A stretch of DNA of 36,353 nucleotides from Polyangiaceae bacterium (GTDB taxonomy: Bacteria > Myxococcota_A > Polyangia > Polyangiales > Polyangiaceae), in assembly GCA_023150915.1 (NCBI GenBank), contig JAKLKA010000069.1:1-36353 (forward strand), in the 5' to 3' direction. The notes beneath the pieces were generated by a model that was not told the origin of the DNA, did not search any database, and worked only from the letters and a program-made list of their open reading frames with translations. A program made the translations under genes and the position numbers. Below are positions 1-17,014 of the stretch, in pieces. Positions within the stretch are counted from its first letter, which is position 1. The number at the start of each line of letters is the position of its first letter.

Positions 1-132
1 GCGACGCCAGCACCGACGGCAGCGCCGGCGACGCCAGCACCGACGGCAGCGCCGGCGACGCCAGCACCGACGGCAGCGCCGGCGACGCCAGCACCGACGG
101 CAGCGCCGGCGACGCCAGCACCGACGGCAGCG
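1..132 (+). repeat. 27-bp coding tandem repeat
   Basis: A 27-bp unit beginning GCGACGCCAGCACCGACGGC starts at 1, 28, 55, 82 and 109, the last copy being shortened. The copies look identical, which implies recent expansion or slippage. The unit is nine codons, so copy-number change keeps the reading frame. The array continues past the left edge. Confidence 0.95.
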
Positions 133-551
133 CGTGCGGCGTGAAGCCCCCGCCTTCGTCCACGCAGTGCCCGGTGGGGTGCGAGGCCTGCGACCAAGGC
201 ACCTGCGTGATGCAGTGCTCCACGGCCCAGGAGTGCAAAGGCGCGGCCATCGCGTGCCCCGCCGGCGCCCCATGTCGGGTCGAGTGCACGAACGCCCAGG
301 CATGCAGCGGCGCGACCATCACCTGTCCCGGCACCTATGCGTGCACCCTGAAGTGCGACGGTAACCAAGCGTGCAAGGACGCCGTGCTCACCTGCGGCGG
401 CGGACCCTGCGACGTCTCGTGCTCGTCGGCGGCCCAGGCCTGCAAGAGCGCCACCGTGACCTGCGGAGCACAGTCCTGTTCGTCCACCTGCGGCTCGAGC
501 GACAAGCCGGCGCTTGCGTGCGGCGGCGCGTGTGCCTGCACGCAGTGCTGA
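1..551 (+). CDS. Cys-rich repeat protein, 5' end missing
   Basis: The reading frame is open to the left edge (first full codon at position 3), so the true start lies outside the window. The visible part begins with about five copies of a 9-residue repeat, DASTDGSAG, which would act as a flexible linker. It is followed by a Cys-rich domain ending in TGA at 549-551. A GTG at 141 is in frame but is only an internal codon. The Cys domain holds three to four units of 22-23 residues with spacing C-x5-C-x6-C-x4/5-C-x3-C and a hydrophobic strand (AIAC, TITC, VLTC, TVTC) in each, which suggests a disulfide-laddered beta-solenoid. By analogy with other myxobacterial proteins built this way it is probably exported or a lipoprotein, but the signal is not visible. 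It converges on the TonB-fusion gene with no base between the stops. Function unknown. Confidence 0.8.
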   Translation, partial: DASTDGSAGDASTDGSAGDASTDGSAGDASTDGSAGDASTDGSACGVKPPPSSTQCPVGCEACDQGTCVMQCSTAQECKGAAIACPAGAPCRVECTNAQACSGATITCPGTYACTLKCDGNQACKDAVLTCGGGPCDVSCSSAAQACKSATVTCGAQSCSSTCGSSDKPALACGGACACTQC

Positions 552-2813
552 TCAGAAGAACGCTTCCACACCGACGCTGGGGATGGTGACCGGACCGATC
601 TCTTCGGCGCGACACTCGCCGCCCGTGTCGCAGTCCAGATCCACCGGCTCTTTGCTGAGCGTGGCGTTCAACACTTCGAACACGAACGCCCACGAGCCGC
701 GCTCGCCCAGACGCCAGCGCTTCTCGAGCCTCACGTCGACGCGGTAGAAGTGCGGCACCCGCCGCGGGCTTTCGGAGCGAAGCTGGTCGACGGAAGCGCG
801 CTCTGCCGGAAAGCCCGAGTAGAAGACCAGCCGCGTCCCGGCTCGCCAGCGTCGCCCGAGGTCGTACGCCAGGGCCAGGTTCACCACGTGCGTGCGGTCG
901 AAGGCCGCGGGGAAGTGCTCGCGACCAAAGCTGCGGGTCGAGCGACTGAGCGTGTACGCCAAGTAGCCGCCGAGCTTCTGGGTCAGCGGCCGGCGGATCA
1001 TCAACTCGGCGCCCACGGCCGAGCCCAGGCTGCGCCGATCGATGCGGTCGTCGTCGCTGGCGGTGCCGATACCGTCGGTCATGTCGAGGAACACGTTCTG
1101 GAACAGCGTGAGCGAGCCGGTGAGGCCCGCGGGCAGGTCGTGCTCGACCCCCGCGCTGGACTGCAGGCTCCGCTGCAAACCGCCCCGCAGACCCGCCAGC
1201 TGGAAGCCGGGTACCGGCACGACGAACGAGGGTGCTTGGTGCGCGACGCCCAAGGCGTGGATCGTCCGCAGGGTGGGTGTGAGCTCGAAGCGGGCGGAGA
1301 TGCGCGGATCGATCCCGAGCAATGCCGCGCCGTCGGACTCGTAGAGATCCACCCGCAGCCCGGGAGTCACGCTGACCCCCCGCGCCGGCGACCACGTCAG
1401 ATCGGTCCAGGCGCCCACTGCCAGATCCGTGCGCTCGGGGAAGAGGCGCTCGAAGGTCTCTCGGTCCTCGAGGTCATCGCCCTCGAAACGAGGCGCCTGC
1501 ACGTCGTAGTGGTCCACCGCGACGTCCGTCCCCGCCCGCAGGCCGACCTCGCGGCTGGCCCGATGCTTGATCTCGCTGCGCGCCGAGATCAGCCGATCGC
1601 GTACGAAGAAGTCGCGCTCGCCCCCGCGGGTGCGGTCCAGGCCGGCGGTCACCGCCAGGCGCAGTTCGGTGTCGCGCGACGCACGGCGGTCCCAGCGCAG
1701 ATCCACGCGATGGAACTCCGTACCCAGCAGGGTCTTGGTCCGACCGTCGTCCTTCTCACCCAGGAAATCGAAGGCACCGAACGAGAACAACGTGAGGGTG
1801 TCGCGCGCGCTGACGTCGTGGCTCACCCGCAGCTGGTAGTCCCAGTACTCGAGCACCGCTTCCGGCGAGAGCAGCGAGAGCAAGAGGCCGGTGTAGGAGT
1901 AGCGTCCGCCGGCCAGCGCGGTCCCGCGGCCGCCGTCGAACGGCGCCTCGACCAGCGCGCCGGCGTCGACCAGCCGCACGTTGGCCTCACCGTGAAGCTC
2001 GGGCCTGGGTGGGGTGGTCTCGCCCGCGACGATCCCGCCGGCGAAGCGGCCGAAGCGCGCGGGGTATCCGCCGGGGTAGAGGTCCACGCGATCGATGATG
2101 CCGGGGTGGATCACCGACGGGCCGAGCCCCACGTGATACAGCAGCGGCACGCGGATCCCGTCCAGGAAGTACCCCACGTTACCGGGTGGCGCGCCGCGCA
2201 CGAAGAAGAACGGCACGCCGCTGATGATCGGCGTGACCCCCGGCAACGCCTCGACCGCGCGAAACGGATCCCCGAAGCTGCCCGGCAGCTCGCGGACCTC
2301 GGCGCGCGTGAAGCTGCGCACCGTGGGCGCCTGCTTCTCGCCGTGAACCACCACCTCGATCTGCTCGGCCGCGCGCGGCCGAGCGGGCAGAGCCGGCGCG
2401 TCCCCGGGCGTGCTGGCCGGAGCCTCGGGCGCGGGAGCCGGCTCGGTGAAGCGCACCTCGAAGCGAATGCGTGCCGCCACCGCGCGGCCGCCCCGCGTGG
2501 CGGGGTCGAACGCCCAGCGGAACGCGTTTCGGGCCGCGACCTCCGAGAACGGCGGCCGGCCGCTGACCACGGTCACGTCGCGTACGCTGCCGTCGACGCC
2601 GATCACGAGCTCGAGGACCACCTGCTCGTCGCCGTGGGCCCCCTCGGGGTAGGCCACGCTGGTATCGCCGACCACCCGCGGACGCTGGACCTCGTCGCCC
2701 GAAGCCCGGGGTGCCCAGAGCGCCAGCGCGCCCAGGAGCGCGATCAGCCCGGCGTGCCGCCGAACACGCCATCGACGGCCTTGGCTCCGACACTCGCGAA
2801 GGCCTGCGGTCAT
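552..2813 (-). CDS. TonB-domain/TonB-dependent receptor fusion
   Basis: A 753-residue outer-membrane receptor with an energy-transducer-like domain at its front. The start is the ATG at 2813, which overlaps the upstream gene's TGA (ATGA). Residues 18-40 form a signal peptide. Residues about 48-123 resemble the TonB C-terminal domain (VAYPEGAHGDEQVVLELVIG, then a DGSVRDV and FDPATRGGRAV pattern). Residues about 150-270 are a plug domain (VRGAPPGN, YFLDGIRVP, DLYPGGYPARFGRFAGG). The rest is a beta-barrel with alternating aromatic strands ending in phenylalanine, as outer-membrane proteins do. Family knowledge: such receptors import bulky ligands using the TonB-ExbB-ExbD motor. Similar fusions are annotated in myxobacteria. 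The substrate is unknown. It is the last gene of a four-gene operon of envelope proteins. Confidence 0.88.
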   Translation of the reverse strand: MTAGLRECRSQGRRWRVRRHAGLIALLGALALWAPRASGDEVQRPRVVGDTSVAYPEGAHGDEQVVLELVIGVDGSVRDVTVVSGRPPFSEVAARNAFRWAFDPATRGGRAVAARIRFEVRFTEPAPAPEAPASTPGDAPALPARPRAAEQIEVVVHGEKQAPTVRSFTRAEVRELPGSFGDPFRAVEALPGVTPIISGVPFFFVRGAPPGNVGYFLDGIRVPLLYHVGLGPSVIHPGIIDRVDLYPGGYPARFGRFAGGIVAGETTPPRPELHGEANVRLVDAGALVEAPFDGGRGTALAGGRYSYTGLLLSLLSPEAVLEYWDYQLRVSHDVSARDTLTLFSFGAFDFLGEKDDGRTKTLLGTEFHRVDLRWDRRASRDTELRLAVTAGLDRTRGGERDFFVRDRLISARSEIKHRASREVGLRAGTDVAVDHYDVQAPRFEGDDLEDRETFERLFPERTDLAVGAWTDLTWSPARGVSVTPGLRVDLYESDGAALLGIDPRISARFELTPTLRTIHALGVAHQAPSFVVPVPGFQLAGLRGGLQRSLQSSAGVEHDLPAGLTGSLTLFQNVFLDMTDGIGTASDDDRIDRRSLGSAVGAELMIRRPLTQKLGGYLAYTLSRSTRSFGREHFPAAFDRTHVVNLALAYDLGRRWRAGTRLVFYSGFPAERASVDQLRSESPRRVPHFYRVDVRLEKRWRLGERGSWAFVFEVLNATLSKEPVDLDCDTGGECRAEEIGPVTIPSVGVEAFF

Positions 2814-3676
2814 TCCGGCGAGAGGGGGTCTTTGCAGCAGCGGAAGCCGATCTCGTAGAACCGGAAGGCGTTGCCGTGGTTGGTCACTGCGTTCTGGCAA
2901 GTGCGCGACTCGGCCCAGTAGCGGCCCTTCAGCGAACCCGAGAAGTCCTTGCCGGCGCCGCCGTCTCGCCGGCGCGTCCACTCTTCGACGTTTCCGCACA
3001 GGTCGAACACGCCGTCCGGCCCGGCGCAGCCGCCATTCGAGCCGCCGGGTTCGGCTTGATACAGCGCTTCGACGTGATCGGCTGCCACCTTGCCCGACGC
3101 CGAGGCAACGCGCGCGGCGTCGAGCAGCGCCGTCAACGACTCGATGTTCGGCTTCGACACCGTCCACGGCCAGCCGTTCAGCTTGCTCTGATCGTACAGC
3201 TTCCACGGTTCTTCGTCGTTGCAGGTACCGGGCACATGCTTGTCCCCGTAGGGGTAGCTCGTACCGGTCGGACCTTCGCAACTGCGAGTCCACTCGTCGT
3301 CGAAACACAGCCGCTTGCCCCGGGCCTGACACCAGGCGGCGCTCTCGTCGAAGGTGAACATGACCAGCGGCAACGCGCCGGCCGCGTTGGGCGCTTCGTG
3401 GCGGTCGATGCAGAAGTCGTCGACCAGCTGCATGTCGGCCGGGCACGGTGGCGCGGCCTCTGCGTCGGGCGGCCCCGCGTCTGCTGCGTCACCCGATGCG
3501 TCGGCATCGCCGGGCGGCTCCGCGCCGTCCGCGCGGTCGGCCTCGAACGCGGCGTCCGCCAGGCCGCCGGTGCCGCCGCCCGCGGCGCCATCGGCGCCCG
3601 GATCGTCGTCGCTGCAGGCCCATGCACCGAGGCCGGCGGCGACGATCCAGAGCGGCAGCCTCATGCGTTTCATCAT
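2810..3676 (-). CDS. SUMF1-like lipoprotein
   Basis: A 288-residue protein starting at ATG 3676 with a lipoprotein signal (lipobox LGAWAC, Cys21), an Asp/Ala/Gly-rich linker to about residue 77, then a formylglycine-generating-enzyme/sulfatase-modifying-factor (SUMF1) fold: PADMQLVDDFCIDRHEAPN, AWCQARGKRLCFDDEW, SCEGP, DLCGNVEEWT and GFRCC. True FGE enzymes use a close Cys pair near the C terminus. Here that region has a single Cys (ESRTC) before the final FRCC, so sulfatase-activating activity is doubtful. Family members lacking the pair act as binding domains or Fe(II)-type oxidases. Third gene of its operon, 43 bp downstream of the preceding gene and overlapping the TonB-receptor gene by 4 bp. 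Probably displayed in the periplasm or on the surface. Confidence 0.88.
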   Translation of the reverse strand: MMKRMRLPLWIVAAGLGAWACSDDDPGADGAAGGGTGGLADAAFEADRADGAEPPGDADASGDAADAGPPDAEAAPPCPADMQLVDDFCIDRHEAPNAAGALPLVMFTFDESAAWCQARGKRLCFDDEWTRSCEGPTGTSYPYGDKHVPGTCNDEEPWKLYDQSKLNGWPWTVSKPNIESLTALLDAARVASASGKVAADHVEALYQAEPGGSNGGCAGPDGVFDLCGNVEEWTRRRDGGAGKDFSGSLKGRYWAESRTCQNAVTNHGNAFRFYEIGFRCCKDPLSPE

Positions 3677-3719
3677 GCCTCGTCTTCGGCCGGTGCGCCC
3701 CTCGGGTTGCGTGAAGAAT

Positions 3720-4607
3720 TCACTCCTCGGGCGGGGTCTCGGGCTCGAGGGGGGCGGGTGCAGAAGACGCCTCGAAGCGCGCGCTCTGGTCGCGCCAGCG
3801 GCCGAGCACCGCGACCTCGACGCGCAACGCCACCTCGGCCGGCGCCGGGGGCAGCGTCACCAGGGGCAACGGCACCACCAGCTTCTCACCCGGACCCAGC
3901 ACCGGGCGGCCCGCCGGGAGCTTCTTCTTCGCCACCAGCCGCTCGAGGTCGCGGGTCGAGAGAAAGCGTTCGTCGGCCAGGCGACCCGCACGCTCGAAGA
4001 CGACCCGCACGCTGAGCGTGCCGTCAGGCGTCTTCGGATCGAGCACGAACACCTCCAGAGGGTCGACCCCTTCGTGCACCAGCGCGAGATCGATCACGGC
4101 GTTCGGGCCATCCATCCGCGCCCGCGAGGCCACCGACAGGGCCGCCAACGGGCGTTTTTTGGCCGAATCGATCAACCCGCGCAACAGCAGGCGGAGCGCG
4201 CCTGCACCCTCGTCTTTCGAAGTGAGCGACAGCTCGGCGCGGCGCGCACCGTGCGAAAGTCGCAGGTGACCCGAACCGTCGGCAGTGAGGCCGGGCTCGT
4301 CATGGCGATCGAGCAGCGAGTGCTCCCCCACGAGGGACGCGAGCTCGGCTCGCTCTCGGGGCGTGGGCCGCACGGCGAAGAAACCGACAGGCCCCCAGGG
4401 GTCGGCGCGCCCGGCCTTCTTCACCACGAGCCGCGCGAGCCCCTCGCCCGCGACCGCCAGCTCGAAGCTCTCGGGTGGGCGCGTGGACTGGACGGCGTAG
4501 TCGATCTCGAGACCGCGGCTTTGCGGAGCTTCGGCGGGCGGCTGCCGAGCACAGGCCACCAGCGCCAGGGCCGCCGCCCCCACGGCGAATCGAGCAGTGT
4601 GACCCAT
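3720..4607 (-). CDS. hypothetical lipoprotein
   Basis: A 295-residue protein of no family I recognise. The start is the ATG at 4607, two bases after the upstream gene's stop. The N-terminus MGHTARFAVGAAALALVAC is a lipoprotein signal with lipobox LVAC (Cys19). The mature part is mixed alpha/beta. Its second half reads like an immunoglobulin-type beta sandwich: strands such as AVIDLALVHEG, LSVRVVFERAG, KLVVPLPLVTLP and VALRVEVAVLG, with GPGEKLVVPLPL resembling intermembrane or chaperone-like modules. There is no catalytic motif. Second gene of the four-gene minus-strand operon, so probably an envelope accessory partner of the Cys-ladder lipoprotein and the TonB-receptor fusion. Confidence 0.8.
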   Translation of the reverse strand: MGHTARFAVGAAALALVACARQPPAEAPQSRGLEIDYAVQSTRPPESFELAVAGEGLARLVVKKAGRADPWGPVGFFAVRPTPRERAELASLVGEHSLLDRHDEPGLTADGSGHLRLSHGARRAELSLTSKDEGAGALRLLLRGLIDSAKKRPLAALSVASRARMDGPNAVIDLALVHEGVDPLEVFVLDPKTPDGTLSVRVVFERAGRLADERFLSTRDLERLVAKKKLPAGRPVLGPGEKLVVPLPLVTLPPAPAEVALRVEVAVLGRWRDQSARFEASSAPAPLEPETPPEE

Positions 4608-4609
4608 CG

Positions 4610-5689
4610 TCAGCCCGTGCCCGCGCCCACCCGACCGCTGACGCTGGCGCTGGCTTGCACGCTCACGTTGATCCGCACCGAGGCCTGGACGGAAGCGTGG
4701 GCCGCCGCCGCGACGCACGCCACGGCCTGCGCGCCCGCGTTGCCGATGACCTTGGGCAGGCGGCCGCCGACGTCGACCACCACCTTCACGTCGCCCAGCA
4801 CGCGCTTGCCGAGCCCGACCTCGGCCTGGATCAGATAGGGCAGGTTGGCCCGCAGCGTGGCCGCCAGGCGCATGGCCAGGTCCACGTTCTGCCCAACGTT
4901 CACGTTCACCTGCCCCGGCGTGCACTGGGCACGCAGGCTGGCGCGAGCGCTGCAACTGGCCTGACACTCGCCGGAAGCGCTGGGGCCCTGCACGTGGCCC
5001 TCGCACTTCGGCGACTGCCACTGCCCCTGGCACTTGGCGTGGCAGGTGGCATCGCAGCTGCCGGTGCAGGTGCCGTTACACGTGCCCGTGCAGCGCCCCT
5101 GCGCGTCCACCGCGCTGCACTGCCCGTTGCAGGTACCGTTGCAGCGGCCTTCGCAACGCCCTTCACAGGTGCCCTGACAATAGCCAGACAGGCGGGCTGG
5201 CTCGCACTGCGCGACGATCTGCCCCGGATCGACCTGCACGTTGCACTGCCCTTCGCACTGGGCCTTGGCCTGGAAGTCGGCCTGGCAGGCGGGCGGCTGC
5301 GCTTGCACCTGGATCTGGATCCCCTGGCGCAAGATCCAGTCGATCTGCCCGGCCAGCGCGCCGCACGCGGCCTTGGCCGAGGCGCCCGGATCGTCGTTCT
5401 TGGGCGCCATGGCTGCGTCGGGGATGCCCAGGTCGCGACCCATGTTCTTGCAGGCCGTGGTCGCCAAGAGCTCCATCTGCACCGAGGCCTGCATCAGATC
5501 CTTGGTCGCGGCCACGAACGCGCGCACCTCCCCGTTTGCCTTGGCGTTGGCCGAGAAGCTCATCTGCATCGGGTCGCCCGAGCCCAGCGCCGGGCAGGCC
5601 GCACCGCCCAGCGCGCCGAACTTGCCGTCCATGCAGCTCGCGCTGACGACCACCAGAACCAGGGCGAAAACCAGATGAAGCAGGCGCAT
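4610..5689 (-). CDS. Cys-ladder (C-x-G-x repeat) lipoprotein
   Basis: A 359-residue lipoprotein. ATG 5689 gives signal MRLLHLVFALVLVVVSASC with Cys19 lipidated; upstream in-frame codons would only add an unrelated extension. The mature protein has an alpha-helical N-terminal part (about 45-135), then a Cys-rich core with cysteines exactly every four residues in two runs of six (171, 175, 179, 183, 187, 191 and 200, 204, 208, 212, 216, 220), mostly as C-x-G-x. There are 25 cysteines in all. The C-terminal 100 residues are Ala/Val/Ser-rich with a VNVNVGQNV strand. Possible roles are a disulfide-crosslinked stalk or a metal-binding surface; neither is shown by the sequence. First gene of the operon, with the next gene starting two bases after its stop. 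I do not recognise a named family. Confidence 0.82.
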   Translation of the reverse strand: MRLLHLVFALVLVVVSASCMDGKFGALGGAACPALGSGDPMQMSFSANAKANGEVRAFVAATKDLMQASVQMELLATTACKNMGRDLGIPDAAMAPKNDDPGASAKAACGALAGQIDWILRQGIQIQVQAQPPACQADFQAKAQCEGQCNVQVDPGQIVAQCEPARLSGYCQGTCEGRCEGRCNGTCNGQCSAVDAQGRCTGTCNGTCTGSCDATCHAKCQGQWQSPKCEGHVQGPSASGECQASCSARASLRAQCTPGQVNVNVGQNVDLAMRLAATLRANLPYLIQAEVGLGKRVLGDVKVVVDVGGRLPKVIGNAGAQAVACVAAAAHASVQASVRINVSVQASASVSGRVGAGTG

Positions 5690-5771
5690 GCCCGAGAGCC
5701 TGTCCGGACCACCGACGCGGCGCAAGTCCCCCCGCGCCTGCACGGCCTGCGCTACCCTCGGGCCGCCGGTG

Positions 5772-6572
5772 ATGCCCCCGCATAAACCCTACTTCGATGG
5801 CACGCGTCCGCTGTGCTTCGCACATCGGGGCGGCGCGGCGCTCTGGCCCGAGAACACGCTGGTGGCCCTGCGCGGCGCCATCGAGCTGGGCGTGACCCAC
5901 CTCGAGACCGACGTGCACCTGACCCGCGACGGCGAGCTGGTGGTCTTCCATGACACGCGCCTGGAGCGCACCACCGACGGCTACGGGCCGATCCGCGACT
6001 TCACTCTGAGCGAGTTGCACGAGCTCGACGCGGGCTTCCGCTTCTCACCCGACGGCAAGAGCCGCCCCTGGCGGGGCAAGGGCCTACGCATCCCGCGGCT
6101 GTCGGAGGTGTTCGAGCTCGACCCGCGCGTGAGGCTCAATGTCGAGATGAAGCAGAGCGGTGTGGGCCTGCCGCAGGCGCTGTGGCGGTTCATCGAGGAG
6201 CGGGGCGTTCACGATCGGATCTTGGTGGCGGCCGCGGAGCTCGGCCTTGGCCGCGAGTTCCGGAAGATCGCCCGCGGACGCGTGGCCACCAGCGCTTCGG
6301 CGCTGGAGGTGGTCGAGCTGTGGGCCGCGGCTCGGGTGGGCCTGGGTCGCGTGATCCCCATCGCCTACGACGCCCTGCAAGTGCCGCCGAGCCAGTACGG
6401 GCTCGAGGTCGTCACCGAGCGGTTCGTGGAGCTGGCCCATGCCCGCGGTCTGCACGTGCACGTCTGGACCATCGACGACCCCAGCGAGATGCGCCGGCTG
6501 ATGGCCCTGGGGGTGGACGGGCTGATGAGCGATCGCCCCGACGTTCTGCTCGAGGTGGTGCGGGCGCCATGA
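5772..6572 (+). CDS. glycerophosphodiester phosphodiesterase
   Basis: A 266-residue GDPD-family enzyme that hydrolyses glycerophosphodiesters to glycerol-3-phosphate and an alcohol. The TIM-barrel catalytic set is intact: HRG at 18-20, PEN at 26-28, E45-T-D47 in HLETDVHLTRDGELVVFHD, and second catalytic His60 in FHD. The C-terminal VHVWTIDD and LMSDRPD motifs are also typical. No signal peptide is visible, so it is probably cytoplasmic, as UgpQ-type enzymes are. ATG 5772 is preferred for length; the adjacent GTG 5769 is possible. It is divergent from the Cys-ladder operon (82-bp gap). Its TGA overlaps the ATG of the next gene (ATGA), so the two are probably translationally coupled. Confidence 0.93.
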   Translation: MPPHKPYFDGTRPLCFAHRGGAALWPENTLVALRGAIELGVTHLETDVHLTRDGELVVFHDTRLERTTDGYGPIRDFTLSELHELDAGFRFSPDGKSRPWRGKGLRIPRLSEVFELDPRVRLNVEMKQSGVGLPQALWRFIEERGVHDRILVAAAELGLGREFRKIARGRVATSASALEVVELWAAARVGLGRVIPIAYDALQVPPSQYGLEVVTERFVELAHARGLHVHVWTIDDPSEMRRLMALGVDGLMSDRPDVLLEVVRAP

Positions 6573-14062: not shown

Positions 14063-17014
14063 TCAGAAGAACCCCGCCCGCCCGCCCTTCCGGCGCAGGA
14101 GCTCGGTCTCGATCAGCGCCACGTGCTCGTGCTCCTCCGCTTCGAGCTCGCGGTACAGGCGCCACACGGCGCTGCCGCGCGCCAGCTCGCTGGTCTTGTC
14201 GCCGAAGAAGCGCTTCGCGCGCTCTTCCAGGCTCAGCGCCAGCTCGAGCAGCTCGACCGGGGTCTTGGGCGAGTCCACGCCGGCATAGAGCGCGCTCACG
14301 TCGGCGCCCAGCTCGACGTCGCCCAGCTCGGGCGCGGGGATGTGATAGCGCGTCGCGAGCAGCTCGAGGTGCTCGCGCTCCATGGCCGCCAAGCGCGAGA
14401 ACATGTCCGACAGCTCGGGCTCGGTCGTGGCCTTGGCGCCGCGCGCGTAGAAGACCCAACCGCCCAGCTCGATCTCCATGGCCTTCTGCACCGCGTCGCG
14501 CACCGCGTCGTCGGCGGGGGACTCGCTGGCCTCGCGCGAGAGCTTGCCGCCGCAGGCCGCACAGCGCCCGAAGGGGAAGGCGAAGCCCTCGTGGATCTTG
14601 TGGCACGACAGGCACTGCCAGCGAATGGCGGCGCCGGCGCAGCACACGTAGGGCTCGCCGGGATCGACCGGGCCATGGCAGCGCGGGCACTTGCCCTCGC
14701 CCGCCGGGAAGTCGTCCTCGCCGCTGTCCGCCGCCGTGGGCGGCCACACGCGGCTCGCCAGGTAGCGGCTGACGTGCCGCGCGGCGCGCCGGCCGGCGCC
14801 CAGCGCGAGGATCACGGTGGCGCCGCCGGTGACGATGTCCCCGCCAGCGAACACCCCCTCGATGCTGGTGGCCTGGGTGAGCGGATCCGCCTCGATGTAG
14901 CCCCACTTGTTCAGCTTCAGGTCCGAGGTCGAGCGCGGCACGATGGGGTTCGCGCGGGTGCCCAGGGCGTAGATCACGGTGCTGGCCGGGTACTCGGCGA
15001 TCTCGCCCTCGACCGGCACGGGCTTGCGCCGCCCGGAGGCATCGGGCTCGCCCAGCGCCATCTGCTGACAGCGCAGCGCGCGCACGTTGTCGTCGGCGTC
15101 GAGCACGATCTCGGTGGGCGCGCGCAAGAAGTGGAACGCCACGCCCTCTTCGCGAGCGTGCCGCAGCTCTTCGACCCGCGCCGGCGCTTCGGCTTCGGTG
15201 CGGCGATACACGCAGTGCACCTGCTGGGCGCCGAGCCGCTTGGCCACGCGCAGGCAGTCCATGGCGGTGTTGCCGGCGCCGATGACCACCACCGACTCGC
15301 CCAGGTCGATGGGTGTGTCGCGATACGGGAAGCGATCGCCGCCCATCAGGTTGACGCGAGTCAGAAACTCGTTGGCGCTCAGCACTTGGCCCGCGCCCTC
15401 GCCCGGTATGCCCAAGAACACCGGGTACCCGGCCCCGGTGGCGACGAACACCGCCGAGAAGCCCATCTCGCCCAGCAGCTGCTCGACGGTGAAGGTCTTG
15501 CCGACGACCTTGTTCACCTCGAACCGCACGCCCAGCTGCTCGAGCGCGCGCACCTCACGCTCGATGGACTCGCGAGGCAGGCGGAAGCTGGGGATGCCGT
15601 AGCGCAAGACCCCGCCGACGACGTGTAACGCCTCGTACACCACCACTTCGACGCCCTCGCGCGCCAGATCGCCCGCACAGGCCAGGCCCGCCGGGCCCGA
15701 GCCCACGATGGCCACGCGACCCTTGCTGGGATCTTTGGCTACCGGCTCGATGATCGGCATGGGCGAGTGATCGCCCACGAAGCGCTCGAGCCGGCCGATG
15801 GCCACCGGCTCCATCTTCTTGTGCAAGATGCACTGCGCTTCGCACTGGCTCTCTTGCGGGCACACGCGCCCGCAGATCGCCGGGAACAGGTTCTCCTCGT
15901 GGATCACCGAGAGCGCGCCGGGCAGGTCGCGCACCAACAGGTGCCGGATGAAGCGCGGAATGTCGATGTTGACCGGGCAGCCCTCGATGCAAGTCGGGCG
16001 CACGCACTGGATGCAGCGCTCGGCTTCGAGCAGCGCCTGCTCTTCGGTGTAGCCCAGGTTCACCTCGTCGAAGCACTGCGCGCGCTCCAGCGCGGGCCGC
16101 TCGGGCATGGGGGTGGCGACGGCGGGCACCTCCTTGAGCTTCTTGTAGTTGCGCTTGCCCTCTTCGAACAGCTGAAGGTCCAGGTTGCAGACGTGGGCGA
16201 AGTCGGCGTCGGCCCGCTGCTCCAGCTTCTTGAACCGGCGCTGGCGAACGCTGAGCTCGGCGAAGTCGACCTGGTGCGCGTCGAAGTCGGGCCCGTCGAC
16301 GCAGGCAAAGCGCACGTCGCCGCCCACGGTGACCCGGCACGAGCCGCACATGCCGGTGCCGTCCACCATGATGGCGTTCAGGCTCACCACCGTGGGGACG
16401 CCCGCGGGTCGCGTCACCTCGGCCACGGCCCGCATCATCGGCAAGGGCCCGACGGCGATCACGCGCTTGGGAACGGGCTCGCGGGTGATCACGTCTGCCA
16501 CGGCGCCGGTCACCAGCCCGGCGCGCCCATGGCTGCCGTCGTCGGTGCAGACGATCAGCTCGTCGCTGATCTCGGCGAAGCGCGCTTCCCAGAAGACCAA
16601 GGCCTTGCTGCGGAAACCGATGATGCTGGTCACCCGGTGGCCGGCCTCTTTGAAGGCCCGCGCTTGCGGAAAGATGGGCGCGACCCCGAGCCCGCCGCCC
16701 ACCAGCACCACGTGCCCCGGCTCGTCGATGTGGCTGGCAATCCCCAGGGGGCCGACGAAGTCGAGGAACCAGTCACCCTGGGCGTAGTTGCCCAGCATCT
16801 CGCGGGTCGAGCGCCCCAGCGCCTGGATCACCAGGGTGACCGTGCCGCGCCGGCGGTCGAAATCGGCGATGGTCAGCGGAATGCGCTCGCCGTGCTCGTG
16901 CAGCCGCAGCATGACGAACTGCCCCGGCTGGGCCGCCTTGGCCACGTCGGGGGCAAAGACCTCCCACAAGAAGGTGGATTCGGAGAAGGTCTGGTGGGCG
17001 ACGATCTGATACAC
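14063..17014 (-). CDS. NfnA-NfnB-rubrerythrin trifunctional fusion
   Basis: A 983-residue fusion. Residues 1-280 are an NfnA/SudB-type FAD and NAD-binding reductase (VGGGLGVAPIFPQ) with a [2Fe-2S] site whose ligands match NfnA: Asp218, Cys223, Cys226, Cys238. Residues 300-755 are an NfnB/GltD-type subunit with 4Fe-4S cysteines (CIQC..CIEGCP at 334-346 and CGRVCPQESQCEAQC at 381-395), FAD motif GSGPAG (438) and NADP motif GAGNTAMD (579). Residues 775-825 form a zinc-ribbon-like C-x2-C set. Residues 835-975 are a ferritin-like diiron domain with two E-x-x-H motifs (MEREH, AEEHEH). Homologous Nfn complexes shuttle electrons among NADH, NADPH and ferredoxin; the tail may reduce peroxide. GTG 17014 matches the family's usual M-Y-x-I start. 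No glutamate synthase large subunit is nearby. Confidence 0.9.
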   Translation of the reverse strand: MYQIVAHQTFSESTFLWEVFAPDVAKAAQPGQFVMLRLHEHGERIPLTIADFDRRRGTVTLVIQALGRSTREMLGNYAQGDWFLDFVGPLGIASHIDEPGHVVLVGGGLGVAPIFPQARAFKEAGHRVTSIIGFRSKALVFWEARFAEISDELIVCTDDGSHGRAGLVTGAVADVITREPVPKRVIAVGPLPMMRAVAEVTRPAGVPTVVSLNAIMVDGTGMCGSCRVTVGGDVRFACVDGPDFDAHQVDFAELSVRQRRFKKLEQRADADFAHVCNLDLQLFEEGKRNYKKLKEVPAVATPMPERPALERAQCFDEVNLGYTEEQALLEAERCIQCVRPTCIEGCPVNIDIPRFIRHLLVRDLPGALSVIHEENLFPAICGRVCPQESQCEAQCILHKKMEPVAIGRLERFVGDHSPMPIIEPVAKDPSKGRVAIVGSGPAGLACAGDLAREGVEVVVYEALHVVGGVLRYGIPSFRLPRESIEREVRALEQLGVRFEVNKVVGKTFTVEQLLGEMGFSAVFVATGAGYPVFLGIPGEGAGQVLSANEFLTRVNLMGGDRFPYRDTPIDLGESVVVIGAGNTAMDCLRVAKRLGAQQVHCVYRRTEAEAPARVEELRHAREEGVAFHFLRAPTEIVLDADDNVRALRCQQMALGEPDASGRRKPVPVEGEIAEYPASTVIYALGTRANPIVPRSTSDLKLNKWGYIEADPLTQATSIEGVFAGGDIVTGGATVILALGAGRRAARHVSRYLASRVWPPTAADSGEDDFPAGEGKCPRCHGPVDPGEPYVCCAGAAIRWQCLSCHKIHEGFAFPFGRCAACGGKLSREASESPADDAVRDAVQKAMEIELGGWVFYARGAKATTEPELSDMFSRLAAMEREHLELLATRYHIPAPELGDVELGADVSALYAGVDSPKTPVELLELALSLEERAKRFFGDKTSELARGSAVWRLYRELEAEEHEHVALIETELLRRKGGRAGFF

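Follow-up and report, generated by a model that had tools for sequence, protein, structure and literature searches.

Four closely spaced genes at one end of a contig from a Polyangiaceae bacterium encode predicted cell envelope proteins, and they raise the question of whether such a set represents a conserved machine for uptake or surface assembly, or a young assembly of envelope genes peculiar to one lineage. The window analyzed here is the whole of contig C7 (36,353 bases), one of the 295 contigs of an 8.0 Mb genome. Named relatives of the locus of the first gene, A, come mostly from Polyangiaceae/Myxococcales assemblies.

Results

Layout and expression of the cluster

All four genes lie on the minus strand. 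Gene A (4610-5689, 359 aa) encodes a lipoprotein with a ladder of cysteines, gene B (3720-4607, 295 aa) a lipoprotein without a family match, gene C (2810-3676, 288 aa) a lipoprotein of the FGE/SUMF1 fold that lacks the catalytic cysteine pair, and gene D (552-2813, 753 aa) a TonB-dependent receptor whose N-terminal part carries a TonB_C domain. The genes and spacings given in a preliminary description of the locus were confirmed as placed: A and B are separated by 2 bp (4608-4609), B and C by 43 bp (3677-3719), and C and D share a 4-bp ATGA overlap (2810-2813). Its prediction of three lipoproteins also agrees with the lipobox-type signal peptides that we recognized by inspection in A (VVSASC), B (LALVAC) and C (LGAWAC). 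The dN/dS values against the congeners are 0.07-0.08 for A, 0.24-0.40 for B, 0.17-0.24 for C and 0.13-0.20 for D, so that all four are real genes under purifying selection, which is strongest on A and weakest on B.

A scan of the gaps found no terminator-like site between the four genes, and the single transcript that had been proposed is probable in this genome. A sigma-70 scan returned no promoter-like sites, a result that says little in DNA this G+C-rich. A to D are probably co-transcribed here as an envelope operon, and its promoter is likely to lie in the 82-bp intergenic region (5690-5771) between A and a divergent gene for a glycerophosphodiester phosphodiesterase (GDPD; 5772-6572, plus strand; PF03009, 164.8 bits). 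The divergent A-GDPD arrangement is kept throughout the genus and in G034, a genome of another genus. At the other end of the cluster, window positions 1-551 hold the 3′ part of a gene for a cysteine-rich protein, convergent with D and cut at the contig start, where a 27-bp tandem repeat (positions 1-133, 4.9 copies, 100% matches) probably caused the assembly break. Further along the contig, a 983-aa fused flavin/glutamate-synthase-type oxidoreductase is encoded on the minus strand at 14066-17014; it matched PRK12775 over its full length, below the cut-off.

A fifth gene deleted between C and D

Both congeners, G002 (loci L065/L109) and G001 (L064), have a further gene between C and D, which we call E and which encodes a VWA-domain lipoprotein of 405-423 aa (PF00092, 24.7 bits against a cut-off of 23.8). 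Alignment by blastn matched window 5800-2791 to L109 9892-12890 and window 2756-520 to L109 14205-16450, so that a 34-bp scar at 2756-2791 replaces the 1,314 bp of L109 that contain gene E. E has been deleted in this genome and the C-D overlap is the scar of that deletion; DNA of the final codons of E persists near the N-terminus of D in a different reading frame. The 4-bp overlap is therefore no sign of tight coupling and, because this tightest junction is a deletion scar, close packing of the genes here is no mark of an old system.

On contig C14 (L084, 491-2926) the same genome carries a paralogue of D with 78% identity, preceded by decayed pieces of E that are read through with it as one ORF. 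In the gene tree this copy groups with D of G001. The pieces on C14 aside, the best other relative of E is 43% identical. Another family of the order has a distant VWA relative of E (27%) at L087 9668-10834, with an A homologue about 1.5 kb away.

Distribution of the set

Homologues were surveyed in 108 genomes of the family, with cut-offs of E<=1e-45 for A, E<=1e-50 for C and E<=1e-120 for D. A has homologues in 26 of these genomes and D in 81, and C has orthologues in 13. Clear orthologues of B were confined to this genus among the 59 relatives searched, where the fourth match had an E value of 5e-4 and extended over 91 residues only. All four genes occur together in one genus only (3 of the 108 genomes) and as a contiguous four in this genome alone: the order here is D-C-B-A, that of G002 is D-E-C-B-A with no insertion and the same short A-B and B-C gaps, and that of G001 is D-E-C-B-A, where B and A are separated by two genes on the opposite strand. 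Outside the genus, A, C and D are linked again in G034, whose genus is about 60% identical, in the order D-C-A with B absent and E elsewhere; A and C, with E, are also linked in a third genus. The order in G064 is E-C-EamA-A, with D at another locus. The intervening gene (L097 8189-9094, minus strand) was assigned to the EamA-type permeases by eye.

Elsewhere the set is scattered. A and C are both present and unlinked in four genomes: in G022, G024 and G017 the genes A, C and D are on three separate loci, and in G072, where the contig that carries A is just 3.2 kb long, A and C are apart and there is no close D. At locus L072 the calls of our own gene finder were poor, and the position of its C was taken from the homology search of the genomes. 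With or without B, C and D, gene A keeps its own surroundings, namely GDPD, a small membrane protein, a flavin-reductase-like gene and biotin carboxylase, although the full set varies.

The preliminary description had proposed a dedicated four-part uptake or surface-assembly system, and had named beforehand, as the finding that would speak against it, that homologues of the four genes are rarely found together. This is largely what the family genomes show, and the proposal is not supported: all four co-occur in one genus, A-C-D in only one more, and three genomes own A, C and D without any linkage among them. A version of the proposal in which A, C or both capture a ligand outside the cell and pass it to D in the manner of SusD, BtuG or a haemophore, with B and E as accessories, would fit the probable single operon and the adjacency of C and D in two genera, with or without E in between, and of A and C in three. 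It does not sit well with the dispersal of A, C and D, with the many A genes, a majority, that have neither C nor D alongside, or with the large differences in the strength of selection among the genes.

At the other extreme, the four could be chance neighbors in a genome rich in envelope genes, with a shared promoter as their sole link. The genome contains 52 FGE-domain matches, C among them, D belongs to a multi-copy family, B is restricted to the genus and the composition of the cluster is unstable, all of which would be expected of chance neighbors. The relinking of A, C and D in the G034 genus, the linkage of A and C (with E) in the third and the unchanged gaps in G002 are not, and we regard this explanation as unlikely. 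Adjacency of A-C-D in two genera and of A-C in three is far above random placement, which makes a degree of functional coupling likely; to call the genes unrelated would go too far. Support in the gene trees was too low to put a date on the linkage or to tell an ancestral linkage from one that arose more than once.

The receptor D and its family

The N-terminus of D consists of a signal-peptide-like stretch followed by a TonB_C domain at residues 64-122 (2448-2624, minus strand, as are all D features; PF03544, 31.9 bits, or 36.5 in a second search, against 24.6). Downstream are a plug domain (2034-2324; PF07715, 28.5 bits against 23.9) and a beta-barrel region (666-1751; PF00593 TonB_dep_Rec, 45.8 bits against 27). 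The preliminary description was therefore correct in reading D as a receptor with its own TonB-like domain, all three matches being above the Pfam cut-offs; the order of its predicted parts differs from that of a TonB energy transducer, in which an inner-membrane anchor is combined with TonB_C at the C-terminus. Past a Pro-rich linker lies the stretch EQIEVVVH (2340-2363), in which 25-28 of the 29 aligned rows keep E153, V154 and V156; on the basis of this conservation the EVxV stretch is a candidate TonB box. Relatives of D share this N-terminal arrangement of TonB_C, Pro-rich linker and EVxV stretch, followed by a strongly conserved RAEVRxLPGAFGDPFRAxExxPGVTP. Sequence searches of the PDB with D, as with B, gave no match.

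Such a fusion is ordinary in this lineage, because TonB_C is present on five of the ten plug-bearing receptors of this genome (contigs C7, C14, C61, C83 and C147). Our literature searches found no paper on TonB_C-receptor fusions. The TonB box is known to pair with the C-terminal domain of TonB by beta-augmentation (PMC11658791), and a built-in TonB_C could therefore cap the TonB box of D itself.

At 15 of 34 D-family loci, a proportion that is not an unbiased rate because the loci were selected as top hits, the gene that follows downstream on the same strand, in many cases with an overlap, encodes a lipoprotein of a family that we call F7 (L090 6535-7413, L094 9491-10342, L095 6683-7723 and twelve more among L075 and L128-L146). 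F7 proteins start with C-L/V-P-x-D-x-R-P at the N-terminus and several have a loop that resembles an EF-hand, for example DTNGDGEITLDE, with 6 of 11 aligned members fitting a strict pattern; the one member tested had no Pfam match at E 0.01. These pairs, and the well-documented lipoprotein partners of other TonB-dependent transporters (review PMC11658791), lend some weight to a dedicated system of ligand capture and import at our locus. However, the usual lipoprotein neighbor in the D family is neither A, B nor C, and D of the window has no F7 beside it, and altogether we consider a dedicated system unlikely.

Genes B and C

Neither A nor B has a family match in Pfam or NCBIfam, and the predicted structure of B, made from two sequences, has a mean pLDDT of 33.7. 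C matches the FGE-sulfatase family (PF03781, 41.7 bits against a cut-off of 23.3), in keeping with its earlier description as a SUMF1-like lipoprotein, and its only sequence match in the PDB is SUMF2 (1y4j). Catalytic formylglycine-generating enzymes have a copper-binding cysteine pair (C-x4-C) near the C-terminus. This motif is absent from all eight aligned C orthologues, and we rejected an active FGE for that reason; judged from sequence, C more probably binds a partner or serves a structural purpose than acts as a catalyst. Two further FGE-domain genes are present on the contig (25457-26065 and 28837-29322, plus strand).

The cysteine ladder of A

A search of 379 genomes from the phylum with a profile of A gave matches in 79, all of them in Polyangia, the class of the source genome. 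The protein contains a Cys-x-Gly-x ladder at residues 168-225 (5015-5188, minus strand), which coincides with the strands of predicted beta-hairpins. In the AlphaFold2 model, made from 20 sequences (mean pLDDT 76.8, pTM 0.63), helices flank two beta-hairpins, and residues 171-220 have 10-residue mean pLDDT values of 79-91. The cysteine pairs 171/191, 175/187 and 179/183 of the first hairpin are in register with one shared sum, the glycine pairs 173/189 and 177/185 sit between them, and the second hairpin repeats the pattern (Cys 208/220 and 212/216). Two A homologues (L085 4524-5402 and L086 7792-8622) lack the ladder and retain its flanks, which identifies the ladder as a module. Comparison of the model with known folds (Foldseek/VIA-align) gave generic helical-bundle matches only (best E 1.8; Z <=7.4). 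The radical-SAM target Cys-rich repeat TIGR04114 was considered for A and rejected (11.9 bits, E 0.26, against a cut-off of 20 bits).

Of 20 A homologues, 19 have a cysteine in the lipobox column. Beyond this column fifteen of the 20 carry 24 cysteines, four carry 32, and L127 carries 31. The aligned cysteine (KKC) of L127 is likely not the true lipobox; counted from its LGGC the number is 30, so that all 20 are even given this correction, which was made after the count. The even number and the symmetric pairing positions favor disulfides over a metal store, and the Cys-x-Gly-x repeat is most likely a cross-strand disulfide ladder on the predicted hairpins.

The preliminary description had also suggested that D might take up a metal bound by the cysteines of A. 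A of the window does have 24 cysteines past its lipobox, and receptors of the class of D often import metal chelates. Even, symmetrically paired cysteines are instead what would be expected of disulfides in an oxidizing compartment, homologues without a ladder persist, and most A genes have no D beside them, so that storage and uptake of metal is a very improbable function for this pair.

Discussion

Our results suggest, with a probability that we put at about one half, that the cluster is a young, lineage-specific envelope operon rather than a conserved machine, reshuffled from genes whose histories are mostly distinct, in which D imports a nutrient, C contributes binding at the surface and A stands apart as a lipoprotein braced by disulfides. 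A, strongly conserved in its own right, could serve as a rigid spacer that projects from the outer membrane. In the ancestry of the genus, the genes C and E, the genus-specific B and the receptor gene D would have become aligned behind A, E being lost here later. D most likely imports a scarce nutrient, energized by the separate TonB-ExbBD of the cell, and its TonB_C domain, without an inner-membrane anchor of its own, probably binds its own TonB box, that of a neighbor or the incoming TonB, so that access would be regulated. C, a non-catalytic protein of the SUMF1 fold and probably a ligand-binding lipoprotein, may, formerly together with E, provide binding at the surface as do lipoproteins of other TonB-dependent transporters.

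A bolder reading is that A represents a new structural class, a symmetric Cys/Gly "disulfide zipper" hairpin between the helical segments of a lipoprotein found across Polyangia, and that receptors like D are autoinhibited by their TonB_C cap. If so, the cap would cover the TonB box of these receptors up to the arrival of the true TonB, and they would form a lineage-specialized class of transporters; we consider this combination improbable. Better targets for study than the presumed system are, first, A itself, as a strongly conserved Polyangia family of Cys-ladder proteins without a Pfam model. The second is the receptor design in which TonB_C precedes the TonB box, which is frequent in the lineage and often paired with F7, a lipoprotein carrying an EF-hand-like loop.

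Parts of the cluster resemble known proteins. C shares the FGE fold (PF03781) with FGE/SUMF1 and with SUMF2, its match 1y4j, and differs from them as a lipoprotein without the catalytic pair. E of the congeners belongs with the VWA-domain lipoproteins, whereas this genome has lost the gene. Residues 45-274 of D, its TonB_C and plug stretch, align with positions 2-246 of the model for the myxochelin receptor MxcH (NF038079); at 47.4 bits against a cut-off of 925, D was rejected as an MxcH orthologue, and we recognized no siderophore genes beside it. The SusCD/BtuBG-type pairs of Bacteroidetes likewise combine a TonB-dependent barrel with lipoproteins and offer an analogy of working principle only, as here A, B and C have no SusD/BtuG match, D has no CarboxypepD_reg extension and receptor and lipoproteins do not stay paired across genomes. 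TonB_C is absent from the five N-terminal architectures that a study of TonB-dependent transporters (PMC6434023) counted. The Oar-type transporter of Myxococcus xanthus described in that work resembles D in that its TonB-dependent barrel is preceded at the N-terminus by an additional periplasmic domain, which in Oar is CarboxypepD_reg and in D is TonB_C.
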